Shown here piece by piece: positions 13,067 through 27,554 of a stretch of 29,604 bases of DNA; positions within the stretch are counted from its first letter, which is position 1, and every line of letters starts with the position of its first letter. A program made the translations under genes and the position numbers. The notes below the pieces were generated by a model. It was not told the origin of the DNA. It did no database searches and worked only from the letters and a program-made list of their open reading frames with translations. Where the stretch lies: the IMG/VR virus record IMGVR_UViG_3300010370_000166, positions 1-29,604 of that record; one strand, given 5' to 3'. This DNA comes from a virus.

Positions 13067-14767
13067 TCAGTCTGTCATAGAGATACGGGTGATTCTCACC
13101 TGGACTTGAGCGTTTGCAGCGACGGTAGCTGCTGTGGCTGTGAAGGTGAGATTTACGTTGTTACCGGAAATTGTTGCGTCAAGTGTTCCTAGGATGGAGG
13201 CGTTCCATACCGAAGCATACTCAGTCATAAAGGCTCCCGATCCATCGTGGATAAGGAGGACTTCGGCCGAGTGGTAGTTTACTCCTTGCTTCATTTGAAT
13301 CAGGTACTTTCCTGTAACGTACTGTGTTTTGTCAAACGTATTGATCACGGAGGCGGTAGAAGTTCCGGCGGCGATGGTGACGAATGAAGTTTGGAACCTT
13401 GTATTATCCTCGTAAGTCCCAGAGCCGTTGGGCTGGGTCTGAATATCGAGGTGATCTTCGAAGTTCGCTGAGCCATTAAACGTAACGTCTCCAGCGGCAA
13501 TAACATCGCCATCCTTATCAACACTGAACTTACTTACCCCACCAACTTGGAGATCAAGTAGCAGGGAGTCGGCAGCGGAAGAGGTATCAGTTACGTCGAC
13601 TCTTAGAGCGGTCTGCAGGGACCCACCGGTAAATTCGACCTCGTTCTCAGTTTTACCGTAGGCATCTACGGAGAGGTAGCGAGAAGCCGAAGCGTAGAAA
13701 TTGACAAGCTTAGAACCAGCGGCGAAGGCCGTCTCGGTTACCTGGAGATCAATACCGGTAAATGTGATGCCCGAGTTGTTCCATGTAGCGGAACCCTTAA
13801 CCAGAGTGTTTTCAGCAATTGAGCCCTGATCGATGTTAAGAGCGGCGCCGTAGGAAGAGCTATTGATCGCCAGTGCGCCATCTTTACGGAGAAGGAGCTT
13901 CTGATTGCCACCAACGGCAATATCGAGCAAACTCGAAGAAGCCGCCGAAGCGGTATCCACAACATCTATCTCGAAGGCCTTGAAGGACACCCCAGCGCTG
14001 TTCCAGGTCTGATCTATATCAACCGCTGGAGATGAGGACGTTAGCGCCGCGGTAGGCTCTAACTTTATGGATCTGACTTCAATACCACCCTTGGTACCCG
14101 CGAAGTCGGGACGTGGGCTGGGCTGATCAGCCTGTGTATCAGAGCCGTTATAGGTAGCGTCTAAGAGGAAAGTAAAATTATCGGTTAGGTTCTTATATCC
14201 AAAAAATCCCTTCTTCGCTGTACCGTCTACGTAATGGAATTGGATACCAAGATCCTGATCAAGGTCTCTCAGTGGATTGAGAGTGAATTTTTGATCTCCG
14301 CTTCCTGAAGTATTGATTGCGATGGCCTGGCCACCCTGACTGGAGGCGATAGTTATCGTTCTGTAGGTCGCACTTGTTACGGTCTCGTCCTTACTAAGAA
14401 CGTAGTACACCGCTCCGTCTGTTAGTCCCTGGGGTAAAGTCCCTCCGACTCCCAGCTCATACTTCAGAGCGTCTCCTACAGCTATATCGTCAAACGGTGT
14501 TAGTTTATCGTTACCCGCTACAGAGTTGGGAAACTTGATCCTGCCTGGAGTCCCAGAGATGATCGCTTCGGCTGTGTATTGCTTACCCGTATTCCCAAGA
14601 GTAATAACAGGGTCGATAGTAGTAATCGTCCTTGTATCTACGACAGTTGATACGCCCTGTACGGTCAGGTCGTTGACAATTATGTTGCGTTTGTCATCAA
14701 CAAACGGTGAGCCATTTACGCTAATACCGTGCTTAACATCAAACCTTCTGTAGGTGGCGTCAGCCAT
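13067..14767 (-). CDS. Fibre-like virion structural protein
   Basis: 566 residues, leftward. The N-terminus contains NDLTVQGVSTVVDTRTI followed by TIDPVITLG, a pattern typical of cyanophage virion and fibre proteins. The middle has loosely repeated units such as DIDQTWNSAGVSFKAFEI and NSGITFTGIDLQVTETA, each followed by LLDIAVGG/LLDLQVGG and an RKDGAL or DKDGDV turn: repetitive beta structure. The C-terminus (TGKYLIQMKQGVNYHSAEVL) resembles C-terminal caps shared by cyanophage fibres. It is rich in Ser/Thr/Ala/Gly, has no Cys, and is likely exposed on the particle. It is isolated between rightward genes with no obvious sigma70 promoter, so it may use a late promoter. Confidence 0.8.
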   Translation of the reverse strand: MADATYRRFDVKHGISVNGSPFVDDKRNIIVNDLTVQGVSTVVDTRTITTIDPVITLGNTGKQYTAEAIISGTPGRIKFPNSVAGNDKLTPFDDIAVGDALKYELGVGGTLPQGLTDGAVYYVLSKDETVTSATYRTITIASSQGGQAIAINTSGSGDQKFTLNPLRDLDQDLGIQFHYVDGTAKKGFFGYKNLTDNFTFLLDATYNGSDTQADQPSPRPDFAGTKGGIEVRSIKLEPTAALTSSSPAVDIDQTWNSAGVSFKAFEIDVVDTASAASSSLLDIAVGGNQKLLLRKDGALAINSSSYGAALNIDQGSIAENTLVKGSATWNNSGITFTGIDLQVTETAFAAGSKLVNFYASASRYLSVDAYGKTENEVEFTGGSLQTALRVDVTDTSSAADSLLLDLQVGGVSKFSVDKDGDVIAAGDVTFNGSANFEDHLDIQTQPNGSGTYEDNTRFQTSFVTIAAGTSTASVINTFDKTQYVTGKYLIQMKQGVNYHSAEVLLIHDGSGAFMTEYASVWNASILGTLDATISGNNVNLTFTATAATVAANAQVQVRITRISMTD

Positions 14768-14861: not shown

Positions 14862-15287
14862 ATGTACTTTGCAGCAGCAATTCAAGCTATAAACGCCGGT
14901 CTTACCAAGAGTAACGAGATCGGTACTAAGATGAATATCGCGGTGGTTGATCGTGGCGGAAACTTGGTCGCTTTTGCTCGTGAAGATGGCGCGTGGGTGG
15001 GAAGCGTAGATATCTCGGTTAAAAAAGCAAAAACCGCAACTTTCTTTGATATGGAAACTCAGGAGATCGGAAAACTCTCCCAGCCCGGTGGCAGCTTATA
15101 CAATATCGAACATTCCAACAATGGTCTTATCACCTTCCCTGGTGGGATTCCTCTGTCCGCTCCTGATGGAACGATTCTCGGAGGAGTTGGGGTTTCGGGT
15201 TCTACTGTAGAAAACGATTGGATTGTAGCTCAAGCGGCCGTGGAAGGGTTTAAAGTAGTTTTTATGGAGAGTCCTGCCTCGGCATAG
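14862..15287 (+). CDS. GlcG/HbpS-family (DUF336) protein, possible haem-binding
   Basis: 141 residues, full length for the family. Motifs in order: [19 protein letters not shown] (helix 1), [60 protein letters not shown] and [20 protein letters not shown]. These match the GlcG/HbpS/PduO-C fold. HbpS of Streptomyces binds and degrades haem; many GlcG proteins have no known role. It has its own strong extended -10 promoter. In a phage with a bilin reductase, a haem-related role is attractive but inferred. This is an unusual family for a cyanophage. Confidence 0.88.
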
Positions 15288-16517: not shown

Positions 16518-17372
16518 ATGGCTCTTGGTTCGTGGCCCGATGGCTGGAGAAACGCTTCCTACTCGGACGAGATGGTTCCGGAGGCGATCCGGAAAACAGC
16601 GACTCCCGGGCAGGTGTACCGAAGCCCGCAGACCGGTCATACACTTCAGAAACAGGCTAATGGCCGGTGGAAGCTGGTGGGTGGGGATGATAGGATGGAG
16701 GGGAAGCAGCGTCAGAGTCCTTCGGGTATGCCAGACATCTCCAAGATGAAAAAGCTAGCCGAAGGCAACTACGGCGTTGTGTATCAGGATCCACAGAGTG
16801 GTCACGTTGTCAAAACCCTCAAGGAGGGGAAGGAGTGGGGCCCCCACGAGGTCGAGCTAGGCAAGAAGATGGGGGAGCTTGGCCACTCTCCAAAAATCTA
16901 TAGCGCTTCCGACTCGCACATTGAGATGGATTTCTCCAAAGGCAAGCCACTGTGGACCGGAGGGTTTAATCGCACCGAGGATGAGAAGGAACGTGATGTA
17001 AAAATGACCACTGATCAGGCTCAGAAAGCTTTTGCGGCCATCAAAGACCTCCATAAGCTCGGTTTCTACCACGGAGACATGCACAACGAACAGTTTCTCA
17101 CTGACGGAGAGGGGGGCAAAGATGCCACTCTGATCGATTACGGCCTCTCGGGTAAGATCCAAGACCAACCTCACAAGGCCATCGTTGACTTCAATAAGGT
17201 GGGAAAGCTCATTGACATCTACAGACCTGAGTTCGATAAGGATCCCTACGTTAACCTCGTACGCGACTCTATCGAGCAGTACAAAGCCGCCAAAGGTCAG
17301 TCCAAAGCCGCTGTTGCTAAACGCTCCCAAATCGGTTTAGAGTACTTTGATAAATTGAAACAGATCGATTGA
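16518..17372 (+). CDS. Protein-kinase-like protein
   Basis: 284 residues. Residues 78-101 show a glycine-loop-like AEGNYGVVYQD and VVKTL with K99 as the ATP-site lysine. H185-G186-D187 in YHGDMHNEQFL is the catalytic loop, and ATLIDYGLS (203-211) with D207 is the DFG equivalent. HGD plus IDYG is the pattern of Kdo-kinase, RIO and phosphotransferase-like kinases. The Mg-binding Asn five residues after the catalytic Asp is Gln192. The N-terminal 75 residues (PGQVYRSPQTGHTLQK...RWKLVGG) form a separate small domain. It could phosphorylate host or virion proteins. The stop codon overlaps the -35 box of the tRNA-Gly promoter. Confidence 0.72.
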   Translation: MALGSWPDGWRNASYSDEMVPEAIRKTATPGQVYRSPQTGHTLQKQANGRWKLVGGDDRMEGKQRQSPSGMPDISKMKKLAEGNYGVVYQDPQSGHVVKTLKEGKEWGPHEVELGKKMGELGHSPKIYSASDSHIEMDFSKGKPLWTGGFNRTEDEKERDVKMTTDQAQKAFAAIKDLHKLGFYHGDMHNEQFLTDGEGGKDATLIDYGLSGKIQDQPHKAIVDFNKVGKLIDIYRPEFDKDPYVNLVRDSIEQYKAAKGQSKAAVAKRSQIGLEYFDKLKQID

Positions 17373-17397
17373 CATACGTCCCTAGATCTGATAAAAT
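17369..17397 (+). promoter_or_regulatory. Consensus sigma70 promoter before tRNA-Gly and porin
   Basis: TTGACA (17369-17374), 17-base spacer, TAAAAT (17392-17397) with TG at 17389-17390. This is the best full -35/-10 match in the window. It drives tRNA-Gly and, by read-through, probably the porin gene. Confidence 0.85.
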
Positions 17398-17453: not shown

Positions 17454-17524
17454 GCGGGCATGGTGTAGAGGTAACATCTCAGCCTTCCAAGCTGCAGTCA
17501 CCGGTTCGATCCCGGTTGCCCGCT
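17454..17524 (+). tRNA. trnG-UCC: tRNA-Gly(TCC)
   Basis: Acceptor GCGGGCA/TGCCCGC, anticodon loop CTTCCAA on stem CAGC/GCTG, and T arm CCGG-TTCGATC-CCGG. CCA is not encoded. It reads GGA codons. Confidence 0.95.
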
Positions 17525-17609: not shown

Positions 17610-18497
17610 ATGAAAAAGCTCGTCTCAGCAATTGGCGCTATCAGCGCAGTTACTATGATTGCTCCGATGTCCGCGATGGCTCAAGTAACTAGCGTCGGTC
17701 AACTGCGCGACGTTCAGCCTACTGAGTGGTCCTATCAGGCCATCTCGAACCTGGTATCTCGTTATGGCTGCATTGCGGGTTTCCCCGATGGCACCTTCAA
17801 GCCAGGTGAGCCTGCTACCCGCGCTCAGCTCGCCGCCCTGACCAACGCCTGCCTCGATCGGATCGCCGAATTCCAAACCGCCGCTGACGCACAACTGGCC
17901 GCTGCTCTTCGCGCGGAATTCGCTCGGGAGCTCGGTGCTACCAATGTCCGTGTAGCACGGCTTGAGAAGGCCGCAGCTCAGAAGTCTCAAGGTGTTGGCA
18001 ACTACGTCGGTGTTGGCGTTCTGCTGAATAAGCAAGGTGTTGATGGTGGCGGTTATACCGAGAACCGTACGATTTCCGGTGCGACCCTCCAAGCTCGTTA
18101 CGCTGCTAAGACTTTCAAAAACCAGAACGCCGTCTCGGTTCGTCCTTACCTGAACGCTGTTGCTGGTCCTAATAGCAATATCGGCACTGCTGGTGGTGCT
18201 CTGCTCTCCTATGACTGGAGCGTTGCCAAGGCTAAGTCCGGTGTGAGCCGCGCGAACATCTACACCGGTGTAGGTTACCAAGTTCCTTTCGCCAATGACA
18301 CTCAGGCCAACTACCAGTCCGCGGTGGGTAGCAAGGGTCAAGTGGTTCTGGCACTTGGCATCGAGGGTCGTCTGACCAACTCTCTGGTGGGATTTGCCGA
18401 TCTGAAGTTCCCCACCACCAACGCTGGGAATAGCTACGGCGGCGCCAACTCCACCTACTCCCCAGTTTTCACCACTGGTCTGGGTATCAAGTTCTGA
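17610..18497 (+). CDS. Outer-membrane SLH-domain porin (host-type)
   Basis: 295 residues. Signal peptide MKKLVSAIGAISAVTMIAPM with cleavage after SAMA. Residues about 27-83 form one S-layer-homology domain: LRDVQPTEWSYQAISNLVSR, YGCIAGFPDGTFKPGEPATR, AQLAALTNACL. A helical linker (FQTAADAQLAAALRAEFARE) precedes about 170 residues of alternating strands ending in GIKF, the typical C-terminal aromatic of an outer-membrane barrel. Cyanobacterial Som-type porins share this order but are nearly twice as long, so the barrel here is short. Codon use looks host-like. Capture from the host and a role in envelope change or superinfection exclusion are inferences. Confidence 0.85.
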   Translation: MKKLVSAIGAISAVTMIAPMSAMAQVTSVGQLRDVQPTEWSYQAISNLVSRYGCIAGFPDGTFKPGEPATRAQLAALTNACLDRIAEFQTAADAQLAAALRAEFARELGATNVRVARLEKAAAQKSQGVGNYVGVGVLLNKQGVDGGGYTENRTISGATLQARYAAKTFKNQNAVSVRPYLNAVAGPNSNIGTAGGALLSYDWSVAKAKSGVSRANIYTGVGYQVPFANDTQANYQSAVGSKGQVVLALGIEGRLTNSLVGFADLKFPTTNAGNSYGGANSTYSPVFTTGLGIKF

Positions 18498-18527: not shown

Positions 18528-18553
18528 GGGGGCCTTGACTGGCCCCCATTTTT
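18528..18553 (+). terminator. Terminator after the porin gene
   Basis: GGGGGCC-TTGACT-GGCCCCC (18528-18547) is followed by ATTTTTAT. A second small hairpin (TGTCAG/CTGACA) lies directly after the stop. Confidence 0.9.
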
Positions 18554-18554
18554 A

Positions 18555-18563
18555 TGATATGAT
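18555..18563 (+). promoter_or_regulatory. Extended -10 promoter of the hli cassette
   Basis: TG-A-TATGAT directly behind the porin terminator, 29 bases before the hli start, which has an AAGGA ribosome site. Confidence 0.6.
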
Positions 18564-18591: not shown

Positions 18592-18786
18592 ATGACAGTA
18601 ACGACCAACGAACACGGTCAGCAGAATATGTGGGCAAAGGAGCCCACAATGTACTACGAGAATTACGGAATGTATTCTCCCTACGAGGTCAAGGAACGCA
18701 CTAATGGCCGCTGGGCTATGATGGGTGTTATCGCTGGTTTCATCTCTTACGCCGTTACAGGCAACTTCTTCTTCGGAGTATTCTAA
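18592..18786 (+). CDS. hli: High-light-inducible protein (Hlip)
   Basis: 64 residues. The C-terminal single membrane helix has the Hlip signature VKERTNGRWAMMGVIAGFIS, with the chlorophyll-binding ExxNGRxAMxG pattern, and ends TGNFFFGVF. The 30-residue N-terminal tail is polar. Hlips protect photosystems and newly made D1 by binding chlorophyll and carotenoid, which fits with the phage psbA. Its stop overlaps the start of the second hli (TAATG). Confidence 0.95.
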   Translation: MTVTTNEHGQQNMWAKEPTMYYENYGMYSPYEVKERTNGRWAMMGVIAGFISYAVTGNFFFGVF

Positions 18787-19382: not shown

Positions 19383-19473
19383 GGGAGAGTGGCTACTGCT
19401 GGCAATATGTGTAGCAGCGGTCTGTAAAACCGTTACATAGGAACCATCGGGGGTTCAATTCCCTCCTCTCTCA
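19383..19473 (+). tRNA. trnY-GUA: tRNA-Tyr(GTA)
   Basis: 91 bases, type II with a long variable arm. Acceptor GGGAGAG/CTCTCTC (one G-T), anticodon loop CTGTAAA on GCGGT/ACCGT. The D-loop region looks unusually long (GCTAC...GTAGC arms). Confidence 0.88.
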
Positions 19474-19945: not shown

Positions 19946-20434
19946 ATGATTCACCCAAATTCACTCGCTAACTTACAAAAGGGGAGAACTCGAAATGATC
20001 CAATAGTCCAATGTCCGTATTGTAATAAGCTTATTAAAAAGCCAAATTTGTCCAGACATTCTTCTAAATGCGTACAAAATCCTAAGTTTGGTACACCGTG
20101 TCCTAAGTGCGGAATTCTTAAGCATCCCAAAAAACAAACCTGTAGCACAGGTTGCTATAACAGTTTATTTAGATCAGGACTTAATAATCCTAACCATCAA
20201 AAGGGAAATAATTACAGAACAATTTGTTTTCACCACCATGAGAAGAAATGTTGCGTATGCGGTTTTGATCTAATTGTAGAAGTTCATCACTTAGATGAAA
20301 ATAAACACAATAATGATCCACTTAATCTCGTACCTCTCTGCCCTAATCATCATCAGGTCTGGCATTCAAAGCATAAATTTTTAATAGAAAATCAAATCTT
20401 GAATTACATTGAATCTAAACGGGATATCGCCTAA
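19946..20434 (+). CDS. HNH homing-type endonuclease
   Basis: 162 residues, AT-rich and unlike its neighbours. The N-terminus (HPNSLANLQKGRTRNDPIV) is followed by zinc knuckles (CPYCNKL, CPKCGIL) and the HNH core: CCVCGFDLIVEVHHLDENKH, then NLVPLCPNHHQVWHSKH, with metal and catalytic His residues. Free-standing HNH enzymes spread by cutting a target and being copied in. Its last codons (DIA then TAA) lie inside the 5' end of tRNA-Pro, and it starts 36 bases after the broken tRNA-Pro. The target was probably the tRNA-Pro anticodon region; that is inference. Confidence 0.9.
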   Translation: MIHPNSLANLQKGRTRNDPIVQCPYCNKLIKKPNLSRHSSKCVQNPKFGTPCPKCGILKHPKKQTCSTGCYNSLFRSGLNNPNHQKGNNYRTICFHHHEKKCCVCGFDLIVEVHHLDENKHNNDPLNLVPLCPNHHQVWHSKHKFLIENQILNYIESKRDIA

Positions 20435-20717: not shown

Positions 20718-21275
20718 ATGAACAATTGCTTACAGTGCGGTGTAAACACAAAAAACCCCAAATTTTGTAGCAAATCTTGTTCGGCAAGTTGGAATAATAA
20801 AAAAGTTCCCAAGAAAAAGAAAAAAAGTTTAAAAATTGCAGAGTGCTTAAATTGTTCTAAAGTTTTTGAATATAGTTCCTATCACAATAAGGGAAAGTAT
20901 TGTTCAAATAGCTGTCAAGTTAAATTTCAAAGGTCTCAAATTATAGAAAAATGGAAACAAAATCCTAAAAGCTCTATAAGAGCCGGATACAAGATAAGCT
21001 CTGTTATAAAAAACTATCTTATAGAAAAAGCTGAGAGTTGTTGTTCTTTATGTGGATGGAGCGAAATAAACCAATATACTGGTAATGTACCGCTAGAAAT
21101 TCATCACATTGACGGCGATTGCTCGAATAACGCAGAAGAAAACTTGCAAGTATTATGCCCAAATTGTCATTCTCTCTCTCATAATTACAAGGGAGCAAAT
21201 AAATCAAAAGCAAGTTCAATTAGGTCCAAGTATTTTAAAGTAAAACAAAAAGAAAATAATGGGAGTATAGCTTAG
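20718..21275 (+). CDS. HNH homing-type endonuclease, second copy type
   Basis: 185 residues, AT-rich. Two zinc knuckle pairs occur at the N-terminus (CLQCGVN...FCSKSC and CLNCSKVF...YCSNSC), then a basic linker and the HNH core: CSLCGWSEINQY, LEIHHIDGDCSNNAEENLQV, LCPNCHSLSHNYKG. It is clearly a different protein from the HNH at 19946. A perfect hairpin GAAAGATA/TATCTTTC lies directly before the start. The last codons (SIA then TAG) fall inside tRNA-Ile, at the same tRNA positions as in the other HNH gene. Confidence 0.9.
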   Translation: MNNCLQCGVNTKNPKFCSKSCSASWNNKKVPKKKKKSLKIAECLNCSKVFEYSSYHNKGKYCSNSCQVKFQRSQIIEKWKQNPKSSIRAGYKISSVIKNYLIEKAESCCSLCGWSEINQYTGNVPLEIHHIDGDCSNNAEENLQVLCPNCHSLSHNYKGANKSKASSIRSKYFKVKQKENNGSIA

Positions 21276-23597: not shown

Positions 23598-26288
23598 ATG
23601 TCCAAACTCAACTCCTTAGGTTATGTAGTCCTTTCAGACTCGATGAACGCCAAGGTGTTTGGAGACGGCATTCAGGCCAAAGATCTGGGAAAAAAGAAAG
23701 TCCTCGAAGTCACCGAGGAGATGGAGGGGTTTGGCGTTAACTTTCCCGTTAAAAACCCCGAGAATTTCTTCATCGACGACTTCGATCTTCCGGAACTTCA
23801 GGCTCCCACAATCAAAGATCACTTCGACACCATCTCCAAGGAAGTCACCGCTAAGCGCGTCCGGCTCATGAAGGATTTTGCTTATACGGAAGTCCCCGAC
23901 GCCCCGGACAAGACAAAGTACTTCCTCCATGCCGGATGGGTTAAGTACCCATTCGACGGAGCTGCCGAAGTCGTGGATGGTATCGAAGAGCAGATCGGAG
24001 TATTTGACTGCGAGACCTTCGTGAAGGGAAGCGACTTCGCCCATCCGATTCTCGCCACGGCCGTTACCGACAAAGCTTACTACATCTGGATGCATCCGAG
24101 TTTTGTCAATCCCAAAGTCCCCTATGAGCCGATGCTCGTCCCCCTAGGTCGCAAGGACGGAGTCTTTATCGCGCATAACGTAGCCTACGACCGCCCTCGG
24201 ACGGCTGAAGCCTACGTCCTCGGAAAGACCAACTCGTGGTTTGACACCATGTCAGCCCACATCAACGTCTCCGGCCTCGCTTCCGGCCAGCGATGGTGGT
24301 ATATTCAGAAACAGGCGAAGAAAGCCACCTACAAAGCCGATCCGATCTGGGCCGATAAGGGCTCGATGAACAACCTCATCGACTGCTATAACTTCCACTG
24401 TCGCCCCGCGATCCCTCTCGAGCAGGAGGACAAGAAGATCCGTAATACGTTCGTAGAAGCTACCTCTATGGAGGATTTCCTGCCAGAGCAGGACGAACTC
24501 ATCCAGTACGCTCTCAACGACGTTAAGATCACCTTCGAGTTATATTCGATTCTCGTTCTCAAGTATCTCCAGAACAACCCGTCCCTGACCACTCTTGCTG
24601 GTCACTTCGGAATCGCCGCCGCTAAACTCCCTGTGGTCTCTGACTGGGAGGATTGGTTCGCTTACTGCGAGAAGCAATGGGAGGATTCTATCGCGCGCCA
24701 GGAGGAGATCCTGGGCAAGATGGCCACTGAGATCTACGAGGCATGGAATGAGGGAGAGCTTAATGACGAGGACATCAAGGAAGATCCGTGGCTCTCACAG
24801 CTCGACTGGGAGGCAAATTTCAAGCTCACCAAGGCTGGAAAGCCCAGCTCGAAGTGGTACGGAGTTCCCAAATGGGTGAGGAGCGTCTCCGCCAAGGACC
24901 TAGTGGATGGCAAACCCGTCATCGAAGGAATCTCGACCAAGAACCGCCTTTCCCACCTTCTGCTCCGCCTCAAGTGGGATAATCAACCCATCCGGTTCTT
25001 CACTGAGAAGGGCTGGTGCTATATGGACGAGGATAGTGGCTCATACGTTCGTATTCCGCACAAGGACGGAGAGGGTGTTAACGTTGGCGGAGTTCTGACC
25101 AAAGATTACGTAGAGGATTTTGAGTCCGGGATTCTGGACTCCGACCTCCCGCAGGCCAGAGAGCTTATCTCGCTCGCTGTTAATGTCGCCTACTGGACGT
25201 CTGTTCGTTCACGTGTGCGAGAGCAGAATGTAGAGACCGTAGACACGCCTAGCGGGAGCAAATTCAAACTTATCGTGCCAGCATCAGTGCCTCATAACAC
25301 CTCCACCAATCGCGCTGGGGAGAATCTCTGGCTGACTGTGCCCGATCCGAAGTACGATAAGATTGGCAGTGAGATCAAGACTCGCGTCCAAGCTCCAGAG
25401 GGCTACGTGTTCGTCGAATCCGACTTCGATGCCCAGGAGGCCGTGGTTGCCTCGATCTTTGCCGACTCCCATCATAAACTGGCCGGGAGTACTCAGTTCT
25501 CCCACTCCATCCTCGCCGGATCTAAGGACGATGGAAGCGATATGCACTCAATGACCGCTAAAGCCATCGGAATCACTCGTGCCATCGCCAAGGGCTGTAA
25601 CTATGGTATGTTGTACGGATGCGGAGCTAAGACCCTGGCCAATACGATCCGCAAGGGTAACAAAAGCATCCCGATGAAGGAGGCCATGGAGATGGGTAAG
25701 AAACTCATCAAGATCAAGAAGGGCGAAAAAGCCTCGAGGCTTTCCCAGACCCTGATCGGTGGATCCGACTCCTACGCATACAACGAGATGGCTCGGATTG
25801 CCAACATGCCCTGCCCAATCAATCCTCTCAGCGGCACCAAGATGTCCACAGCCTTCCGCCCCTCGAGTGTGGGAACGGACTTCTGGACCATGAGGAACAA
25901 CTGGTGCATCCAATCCACCGGGAGTGCCATGCTCCACGCCTTCATGACCGCTATGGAGTGGCTCATCGATAAGTACGAGTTGGAAGCGGAGTTCTGCATG
26001 AGCGTCCACGACAGCATCTTGTATCTTTGTCCCGAAGCCCAGGCGGAAAAAGTCGCGGCCCTCTTCCAGGTGGCTCATGCCTGGTGTTGGGCCTGGATGC
26101 GGTATAATTACGGTATCTATGAGCTCCCAGTGGCCAATGCTTGGCTCTCCTCGATTGAGATCGATAAGATCTTCAGGAAGTCCGCTGACTCCAGCACCAA
26201 AACGGTCTCGCAGCGTACGGACGAGGAGGATGGACGATCCGTCACCATTCAGGATCTCATCCCCGTATTCAATTCGATGTTCAAATGA
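23598..26288 (+). CDS. Family A DNA polymerase resembling mitochondrial Pol gamma
   Basis: 896 residues. 3'-5' exonuclease: VFDCET (D137, E139), AHNVAYDR (N194, D198), YALNDV (Y304, D308). Polymerase: motif A VESDFDAQE (D609), motif B RAIAKGCNYG (R661, K665, Y669), motif C SVHDSI (H804, D805). Beyond these, Pol gamma segments recur in order: FDTMSAHINVSGLASGQRW, KEDPWLSQLDWE, PHKDGEGVNVGG, LWLTVPDPKYDKIGSEIKTR, GSDMHSMTAKAIGI, CIQSTGSAMLH and a C-terminal SSIEIDKIFRK. Human Pol gamma is about 1,240 residues, with a mitochondrial signal and larger spacer absent here. It is presumably the phage replicase, and Tyr669 predicts dideoxynucleotide sensitivity. Its stop overlaps the next start (ATGA). 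Confidence 0.95.
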   Translation: MSKLNSLGYVVLSDSMNAKVFGDGIQAKDLGKKKVLEVTEEMEGFGVNFPVKNPENFFIDDFDLPELQAPTIKDHFDTISKEVTAKRVRLMKDFAYTEVPDAPDKTKYFLHAGWVKYPFDGAAEVVDGIEEQIGVFDCETFVKGSDFAHPILATAVTDKAYYIWMHPSFVNPKVPYEPMLVPLGRKDGVFIAHNVAYDRPRTAEAYVLGKTNSWFDTMSAHINVSGLASGQRWWYIQKQAKKATYKADPIWADKGSMNNLIDCYNFHCRPAIPLEQEDKKIRNTFVEATSMEDFLPEQDELIQYALNDVKITFELYSILVLKYLQNNPSLTTLAGHFGIAAAKLPVVSDWEDWFAYCEKQWEDSIARQEEILGKMATEIYEAWNEGELNDEDIKEDPWLSQLDWEANFKLTKAGKPSSKWYGVPKWVRSVSAKDLVDGKPVIEGISTKNRLSHLLLRLKWDNQPIRFFTEKGWCYMDEDSGSYVRIPHKDGEGVNVGGVLTKDYVEDFESGILDSDLPQARELISLAVNVAYWTSVRSRVREQNVETVDTPSGSKFKLIVPASVPHNTSTNRAGENLWLTVPDPKYDKIGSEIKTRVQAPEGYVFVESDFDAQEAVVASIFADSHHKLAGSTQFSHSILAGSKDDGSDMHSMTAKAIGITRAIAKGCNYGMLYGCGAKTLANTIRKGNKSIPMKEAMEMGKKLIKIKKGEKASRLSQTLIGGSDSYAYNEMARIANMPCPINPLSGTKMSTAFRPSSVGTDFWTMRNNWCIQSTGSAMLHAFMTAMEWLIDKYELEAEFCMSVHDSILYLCPEAQAEKVAALFQVAHAWCWAWMRYNYGIYELPVANAWLSSIEIDKIFRKSADSSTKTVSQRTDEEDGRSVTIQDLIPVFNSMFK

Positions 26289-26566: not shown

Positions 26567-26722
26567 TCCCCTCTGTTTAGTTTAAAGTTAAATTCAAGTG
26601 TTTTTCGATCCGAGTCCTCTCGTGTATCGCCGGGCACTTGTCATAGCATCTCTAACTCATCTATAAACAATTGCAGATTGCAAAGATGACCCTGGAATGG
26701 TATGTTCCTTACATTGGAGCTC

Positions 26723-27076
26723 ATGAAAAAAGTAATTGTTACCCTCGGCCTGGCCGCGCTCTCCTTTCTTCCTCTGTCTGCACACGCAGGAAGACAATGT
26801 GGACAAGCAAGTTACTACGGCTTAGGGGACGGATATCAAGGAGGTATTACGGCTTCTGGACGCAGGTTTGATACCTGGTCTAATCAAGCAGCGCACAAGT
26901 GGCTACCCTTTGGAACGGTTGTTACAGTGTCTGCTAATGGTAGAAGCACTAGAGCAGTGATTACCGACCGCGGACCATTTGTTGGCGGTAGGGTCATTGA
27001 CCTGTCTGCGGCATCTTTTAGCGCACTAGGACCTATCTCCCGAGGAGTGCATAACGTTTGCATCTCCTGGAACTAA
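26723..27076 (+). CDS. Secreted RlpA-like double-psi beta-barrel protein
   Basis: 117 residues from ATG 26723, which has GGAG upstream; the frame opens 7 codons earlier. Signal peptide MKKVIVTLGLAALSFLPLSA with cleavage after AHA. The mature part is almost only the RlpA barrel: GQASYYG, GITASGRRFD, AAHKWLPFGT (H58), TDRGPFVGGRVIDLS (D82) and ALGPISRGV. H and D are at the positions of the acid and partner residue in the RlpA lytic transglycosylase. C26 and C113 may form a disulphide. There is no SPOR domain. It would reach the periplasm and could help lysis or wall remodelling. A strong terminator follows. Confidence 0.9.
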   Translation: MKKVIVTLGLAALSFLPLSAHAGRQCGQASYYGLGDGYQGGITASGRRFDTWSNQAAHKWLPFGTVVTVSANGRSTRAVITDRGPFVGGRVIDLSAASFSALGPISRGVHNVCISWN

Positions 27077-27143: not shown

Positions 27144-27554
27144 TTAGACTTCTAGCACCGACTTCATGAGGTAACAGAGCGTATTGCTGTCTGTCAGGAA
27201 TCCTTCAATAACGTTGACAAATCCAAACTGCTTCTCCTGCTCCGCAACATCCCTGATAAGTTCCAGATCGGACTTGTATCTCATGCACAGCGTCAGTAGC
27301 CACTCCACGAGGTCCGTGGAAGTCGTCCACTCTATCTCCGGAACTTGATTGAAGACGTGAGCAGTGATCTCGATTCCCAGTCCTCTGGCCTGCTCCGCGA
27401 AAGTATCGGTCTGAGCGTCTAAGATCTCATAGACTCTCTGAAAGAGCAGGTGGAGCTGGTAGAAGTCCTTCCCAACAACATTCCAGTGAGCGAGTTGAGC
27501 TGCTCCCTTAAAGCTTAAAAGTGAGGCGAAGACGGAGTAGAAAAGTGAAGTCAT
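27144..27554 (-). CDS. dps: Dps-type mini-ferritin
   Basis: 136 residues. FKGAAQLAHWNVVGKDFYQL (15-34) with H23, H35 in LHLLF, and D50/E54 in QTDTFAEQARGLG match the Dps ferroxidase ligands in exact spacing (H, +12 H, +27 D, +31 E). The rest is a four-helix bundle. Dps oxidises and stores iron and protects DNA from peroxide. This copy is slightly short at the N-terminus and lacks a basic DNA-binding tail. It overlaps the stop of the tail-protein gene upstream by 4 bases, so it is co-expressed with virion genes, which is unusual. Confidence 0.85.
   Translation of the reverse strand: MTSLFYSVFASLLSFKGAAQLAHWNVVGKDFYQLHLLFQRVYEILDAQTDTFAEQARGLGIEITAHVFNQVPEIEWTTSTDLVEWLLTLCMRYKSDLELIRDVAEQEKQFGFVNVIEGFLTDSNTLCYLMKSVLEV

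Follow-up and report, generated by a model that had tools for sequence, protein, structure and literature searches.

The gene at positions 17610-18497 of a 29.6-kb virus record (hereafter the window, meaning the whole stretch of 29,604 nucleotides that was analysed) raises the question of what a phage gains from a protein apparently built for the outer membrane of its host. Besides this gene, the window encodes psbA, hli, tRNAs and a baseplate-type gene. The original prediction described the product as a host-type Som-like porin, a description that holds for its stalk and fails for its barrel, which comes from another protein family; the fusion of the two was found in no host genome searched. 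The protein is a chimera of a Som-type stalk and an unrelated small barrel. We consider it somewhat more probable than the opposite (roughly 0.55) that it serves as a compact tether between outer membrane and peptidoglycan, made early in infection, which holds the envelope to the wall rather than serving as an open pore.

The gene is real and conserved, and it is under strong purifying selection, with pairwise dN of 0.09-0.14 and dS saturated at values of at least 1.4. Its product carries, in order, a signal peptide, an S-layer-homology (SLH) domain, a coiled coil and an outer-membrane barrel (Table 1). The signal peptide that had been predicted is of a typical Sec type (MKK...APMSAMA) and forms the most variable stretch of the protein, as expected. 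The single SLH domain, also predicted from the outset, was recovered by a Pfam search. Its TRAE/TRAQ motif is kept among relatives when variants are counted, and invariant columns in the alignment of the compact family (relatives sharing this architecture) include C54 within the domain and C81 just past it. The GLGIKF-type beta-signal is likewise conserved in the compact relatives inspected.

Table 1. Positions of the SLH-barrel gene, its domains and its flanking signals in the window
Feature	Position	Strand	Basis
Sigma-70-type promoter, TTGACA-17-TGnTAAAAT, extended -10 TAAAAT	17369..17397	+	11/12 consensus positions
tRNA-Gly(TCC), between promoter and SLH gene	17454..17524	+	ARAGORN, Rfam
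295-aa ORF, compact SLH-stalk / 8-stranded-barrel outer-membrane protein	17610..18497	+	ORF call, domain, profile and structure predictions
Sec signal peptide, residues 1-24, cleavage after AMA	17610..17681	+	Read from sequence (MKK...APMSAMA)
SLH domain, residues 33-75, with TRAQ/TRAE motif	17706..17834	+	Pfam PF00395, E 1.1e-10
Long helix / coiled-coil stalk, residues 91-126	17880..17987	+	Helix predicted by AF2; aligns to por_somb together with SLH domain
8-stranded OmpA/OmpW/OmpX-type barrel, residues 128-295	17991..18494	+	AF2, VIA, profile homology
C-terminal beta-signal GLGIKF, final residue aromatic	18477..18494	+	Sequence
Intrinsic terminator, G+C-rich hairpin then T run	18528..18547	+	
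Promoter of hli gene, overlaps terminator	18535..18563	+	
hli (high-light-inducible protein)	18592..18786	+	phrog_178, E 2.3e-27

Judged by profile homology, residues ~25-127, with the one SLH domain and the coiled coil, make up a stalk of the kind found in picocyanobacterial Som/por_somb porins. A profile of the compact family aligns to 77 host porins within residues 20-134 only (E 1.9e-38). The NCBIfam model por_somb (NF033921, 'iron uptake porin') is matched by residues 26-124 at its positions 1-107 of 485, giving a whole-protein score of 89.7 bits that lies under the NCBIfam cut-off of 100 bits; this cut-off is just passed by two of 13 compact relatives, through the stalk alone. Compared with PHROGs, the whole protein yields a match at chance level. 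The stalk is found in 123 of 151 picocyanobacterial genomes, and its best host matches, among the matches listed, lie in long porin frames, save for a few short frames, of which those checked were cut by contig ends or, in one case, apparently frameshifted. A phylogeny against host SLH porins had been proposed as a way to show host origin; the stalk tree, built on ~100 columns and poorly resolved in its internal branches, gathers the compact form into one clade (100/100 support) and gives it no position near any particular host.

The barrel had been called shortened. Structure prediction did return a C-terminal outer-membrane barrel, and to that extent the assignment as an SLH outer-membrane protein stands, but the barrel is not a shortened Som barrel. 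OprB (PF04966) has no match in the protein and was found in the S-SRM01 porin and one other viral porin by the same tests. A shortened OprB barrel was rejected, since hhalign of the barrel alone against the 77 host porins gave a probability of 0.2%. Eight strands (residues 132-141, 154-168, 174-185, 191-207, 213-224, 244-254, 259-268 and 286-294) are predicted in two AlphaFold runs, the second made with host stalks. The second run raised the confidence of the barrel and did not improve that of the SLH part. Barrel pLDDT is ~60-93; that of the SLH part is ~45-60, and its fold therefore rests on sequence homology. Structural comparison of the barrel by VIA-align gave Z-scores of ~15 for OmpW and OmpA (1bxw, 1qjp), 14 for PagL, OprF and the Thermus outer-membrane protein 3dzm, and 12 for OmpX. 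Foldseek TM-scores were modest, as were the Foldseek E-values of the first model, with its low pLDDT. The top match in BFVD is S-PM2 p168, followed by a stand-alone barrel of S-CBWM1. Outer loops in the predicted barrel are short, at 5-19 aa, and fairly conserved.

The barrel is homologous to stand-alone cyanobacterial PF13505 (OMP_b-brl) proteins, which its profile matches with a best E-value of 2.8e-8 and which align to the phage barrel in hhalign with a probability of 98.8% (E 6e-17). The OMP_b-brl domain is present in both stand-alone cyanobacterial proteins tested; the phage protein itself has no direct Pfam hit to it. Barrel-like stand-alone proteins occur in ~13 of 386 cyanobacterial genomes sampled phylum-wide, the weakest of the 16 rows listed being at chance level. 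A search of 400 genomes from the picocyanobacterial family gave nothing credible for the barrel, the sole hit (E 0.035) containing stop codons. On the basis of the model and of these profile matches, we assign the barrel to an 8-stranded OmpA/OmpX/OmpW type from another protein family than that of Som.

How the two parts came together was considered in the light of these distributions. A contig scan of host genomes with two short patterns found no fused form. Recent capture of a whole host gene was rejected as far as tested, given this absence of a host fusion; it is also opposed by the absence of the barrel from the picocyanobacterial genomes and by the long frames in which the listed host stalks lie. 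The simplest account is that the stalk-barrel fusion arose once, because the compact stalks form one clade, and that it is old enough to have diversified.

Many cyanophages share the fused form. An IMG/VR scan returned ~130 relatives, and the best 80 among these were retained. Phage S-SRM01 encodes a related but full-length 'porin' with an OprB match. A scan with this porin returned 506 viral relatives, a figure that may include compact forms by way of the stalk; the best 80 of the 506 match almost all of this porin. Cyanophages widely carry SLH-OprB porins of full length. Each of 27 large records carries exactly one por_somb-type gene, compact in 13 and full-length in 14, with both forms together in none. 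The compact and full-length forms replace each other, the stalk being constant and the barrel exchanged. Neighbours common to both are hli, a petF-like ferredoxin, a Dps-like gene and several small families, whereas pstS lies nearby in 28 of 75 full-length loci versus one of 59 compact loci. The full-length porin with pstS suggests a phage phosphate-uptake pair. We tentatively entertain a wider reading, possible but not one we would expect to hold in full: that cyanophages carry a one-copy 'envelope tether' locus with a common Som-type SLH stalk and interchangeable barrels, one kind being that of the full OprB porin, in many cases close to pstS, and the other an 8-stranded barrel of OmpX type brought in by exchange. 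By this locus the phage would early take over outer-membrane attachment and, in some lineages, permeability, possibly outcompeting host SLH porins for wall sites.

The transcription signals bear on when the protein is made. The original prediction gave the gene signals of its own, and a sigma-70-type promoter is indeed present; it lies upstream of tRNA-Gly, and the transcript therefore probably carries both the tRNA and the SLH-barrel gene. The strong terminator was confirmed, and hairpins of a similar kind are found 3' of many relatives. The hli gene that follows is the commonest neighbour (20 of 59 compact-form loci). When counted over 57 compact-form loci, a promoter matching at least 11 of 12 consensus positions occurs within 300 nt upstream in 63% of relatives, compared with 17% of other genes at the same loci. 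Some relatives carry a late-promoter-like motif, TATAAATA.

Other genes of the window were also inspected. The SLH gene is adjoined upstream by a gene for a 284-aa protein (16518-17372, + strand) with weak Pkinase, ABC1 and Kdo/WaaP matches, all below cut-off. A haem-degrading HbpS-like protein, in a phage, is encoded at 14862-15287 (+; PF03928, E 1.2e-33). Further along lie genes for a secreted RlpA-like/double-psi barrel protein (26702-27076, +) and a ferritin/Dps-like protein (27144-27554, -), and both families recur close to the SLH gene in other phages. The 896-aa DNA polymerase (23598-26288, +) combines a family A polymerase domain with an exonuclease domain that fits the model for mitochondrial polymerase exonucleases (PF18136, E 8e-53); cyanophage polymerases with this combination have been described before. 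Two HNH-endonuclease-like genes with weak Pfam matches (19946-20434 and 20718-21275, +) sit among tRNA genes, and a tRNA recognised by Rfam (19383-19473, +; 44 bits) is absent from the ARAGORN calls. At 13067-14767 (-), a tail-fibre-connector match (phrog_967) covers the first 250 residues only, and most of the protein's second half has no assignment.

Background from cellular systems frames our preferred reading. Barrels with SLH stalks serve as tethers between outer membrane and wall in diderm Terrabacteria, among them the cyanobacteria, and a cyanobacterial SLH domain binds a pyruvylated wall polymer in vitro (PMC10628300). In Synechocystis, one SLH porin is essential, and a second has an effect on vesiculation and on iron (PMC8707739). 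For the phage encoding the gene at 17610-18497, we infer trimerisation, wall binding, tethering and timing. By analogy with OmpM and SlpA, three copies of the SLH domain and coiled coil would assemble in the periplasm into a stalk gripping the pyruvylated polymer that is attached to peptidoglycan, while the 8-stranded barrel would sit in the outer membrane with a lumen that is narrow at most. The host-type sigma-70 promoter would give early, abundant synthesis in the infected cell, and the homologue in S-PM2 is reported, in a review citing Clokie 2006, to be among the earliest and most abundant transcripts (PMC2984593). The tether would then hold the envelope attached and intact until lysis, while the phage redirects its host. 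It may also compete for the wall sites that host Som porins use, with possible effects on superinfection as an extension. We favour an early compact tether because the stalk is shared by all phage versions and a barrel of eight strands makes a good anchor but a poor pore. Likewise, short and fairly conserved outer loops, as predicted here, fit a structural role better than an arms race. Two facts weigh against tethering as the sole benefit: hosts carry several SLH porins already, and other phages keep the full OprB barrel, often near pstS.

An overproduced phage stalk might instead take the wall sites of host Som porins or co-trimerise with them, such that host porins are replaced, a receptor is removed, and superinfection or grazing is blocked. 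We regard this as unlikely, albeit worth serious consideration. A precedent exists in the Lc porin of phage PA-2, a phage-coded porin that replaces a host porin receptor. The homology of the stalk to host porins is consistent with displacement, as is the early and abundant transcription of the S-PM2 homologue, for which protection against infection or grazing has been proposed (PMC2984593). However, our literature search located no evidence of a Som porin serving as a cyanophage receptor, the short and fairly conserved outer loops argue against such a role, and the full-length form of other phages would leave a porin surface on the cell. Masking of a receptor, as originally envisaged, may still be an effect of the phage protein.

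It is less probable again that the barrel functions as a channel, admitting a small solute (e.g. iron, phosphate or hydrophobic compounds) to the infected cell. Barrels of eight strands usually lack an open diffusion pore, but some, such as OmpW, can conduct small solutes, and OmpW is among the best fold matches here. By this analogy some channel activity of the phage barrel is possible; bulk pore activity is unlikely. The naming of the S-CREM1 homologue as an 'iron uptake porin', the pstS genes near full-length phage porins and the effect of Synechocystis Slr1908 (SLH/OprB) on iron uptake (PMC8707739) also point towards a channel. Against these observations, the porin name derives from the stalk, through the partial por_somb match, whose score falls below the cut-off or reaches it, the protein has no OprB channel domain, and pstS is near a single compact locus. 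The proposal that a new porin alters nutrient uptake is thus unlikely for the compact version, whose barrel is not of porin type; a true phage porin is found in other cyanophages.

The protein had also been suggested to weaken the outer membrane before lysis, which is opposite to the effect expected of an SLH tether. We consider it very improbable that the protein aids lysis or release by loosening the outer membrane at a late stage of infection. Genes of an endolysin-like family and RlpA-like genes lie nearby in some loci, and the late-promoter-like motif of some relatives would suit this role, but an SLH tether should strengthen attachment, the promoter is of early type, and the S-PM2 homologue is transcribed early. 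A virion component, such as a head or tail decoration based on an outer-membrane-like protein, is the most doubtful reading, since conservation of the gene in many cyanomyoviruses is outweighed by a Sec signal peptide and beta-signal that direct the protein to the outer membrane, by an early sigma-70-type promoter in most relatives, and by a position among hli, petF and Dps-like genes outside any structural module.

If the compact tether reading is correct, many uncultured cyanophages possess such a tether, as does the laboratory phage S-PM2, and cyanophages manage envelope attachment as well as photosynthesis. S-PM2 with Synechococcus WH7803 offers a direct test system. The porin and S-layer names, which derive from the stalk only, would be corrected, and claims of phage iron-uptake or S-layer genes would be affected. 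Neither the carriage of an SLH protein by phages nor the idea of protection is new, because both the S-PM2 protein and its possible protective surface role appear in a 2010 review (PMC2984593); an 'S-layer domain protein' cluster of ~570 bp has also been noted in other cyanophages (Sullivan et al. 2010, PMC3037559). In the literature examined, we found no mention of the chimeric build, the identity of the barrel, its absence from picocyanobacteria or the pattern of one form per phage. Nor was a phage-coded tether from outer membrane to wall found in the literature searched, in which searches on cyanophage porins and receptors gave little.

Among known proteins, the closest are those of two cyanomyoviruses, S-PM2 p168 ('putative S-layer protein', 70% identity) and S-CREM1 SCREM1_199 ('iron uptake porin', 83% identity). 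Both are homologous in stalk and barrel, share the compact architecture and were named from the stalk alone; in S-PM2, hli lies downstream of the SLH gene, as it does in the window. It is from the SLH domain that the S-PM2 protein takes its name; in the protein studied here this domain is N-terminal to a beta-barrel and so is expected to be periplasmic. Som/SLH-OprB porins (por_somb NF033921; Slr1841, Slr1908) likewise have a signal peptide, one SLH domain, a coiled-coil stalk and a C-terminal barrel, but theirs is a large OprB barrel in a protein of ~450-600 aa, compared with an unrelated 8-stranded barrel in 295 aa. The same domain order is seen in the SlpA/OmpM connectors and in Deinococcus SLH-coiled-coil proteins, two of which have an 8-stranded OmpA-like barrel and have been put forward as links from the outer membrane to the wall (PMC9388160). 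These Deinococcus connectors are cellular and are likened to the phage protein by their described architecture. The phage fusion appears to be independent of the Deinococcus one, as suggested by the cyanobacterial relatives of both its barrel and its stalk.

Stand-alone cyanobacterial OMP_b-brl proteins (~170-180 aa) have a homologous barrel and no SLH stalk, and occur in larger cyanobacterial genomes and not in the 400 picocyanobacterial ones; Anabaena Alr5049 (169 aa) may be one of them, by size and description only. The phage-coded S-CBWM1 gp38 (156 aa) has a similar predicted barrel (TM 0.70, 22% identity) and matches the cyanobacterial stand-alone proteins, but it lacks an SLH stalk, belongs to another phage lineage and lies near an RlpA-like gene. 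Lom/Ail-type outer-membrane proteins also have 8-stranded barrels, and Lom is phage-coded, without a wall-binding domain. E. coli OmpA, in turn, combines an 8-stranded barrel with tethering of the outer membrane to peptidoglycan, for which it uses a C-terminal OmpA-type wall domain, whereas the wall domain of the phage protein is an N-terminal SLH domain.
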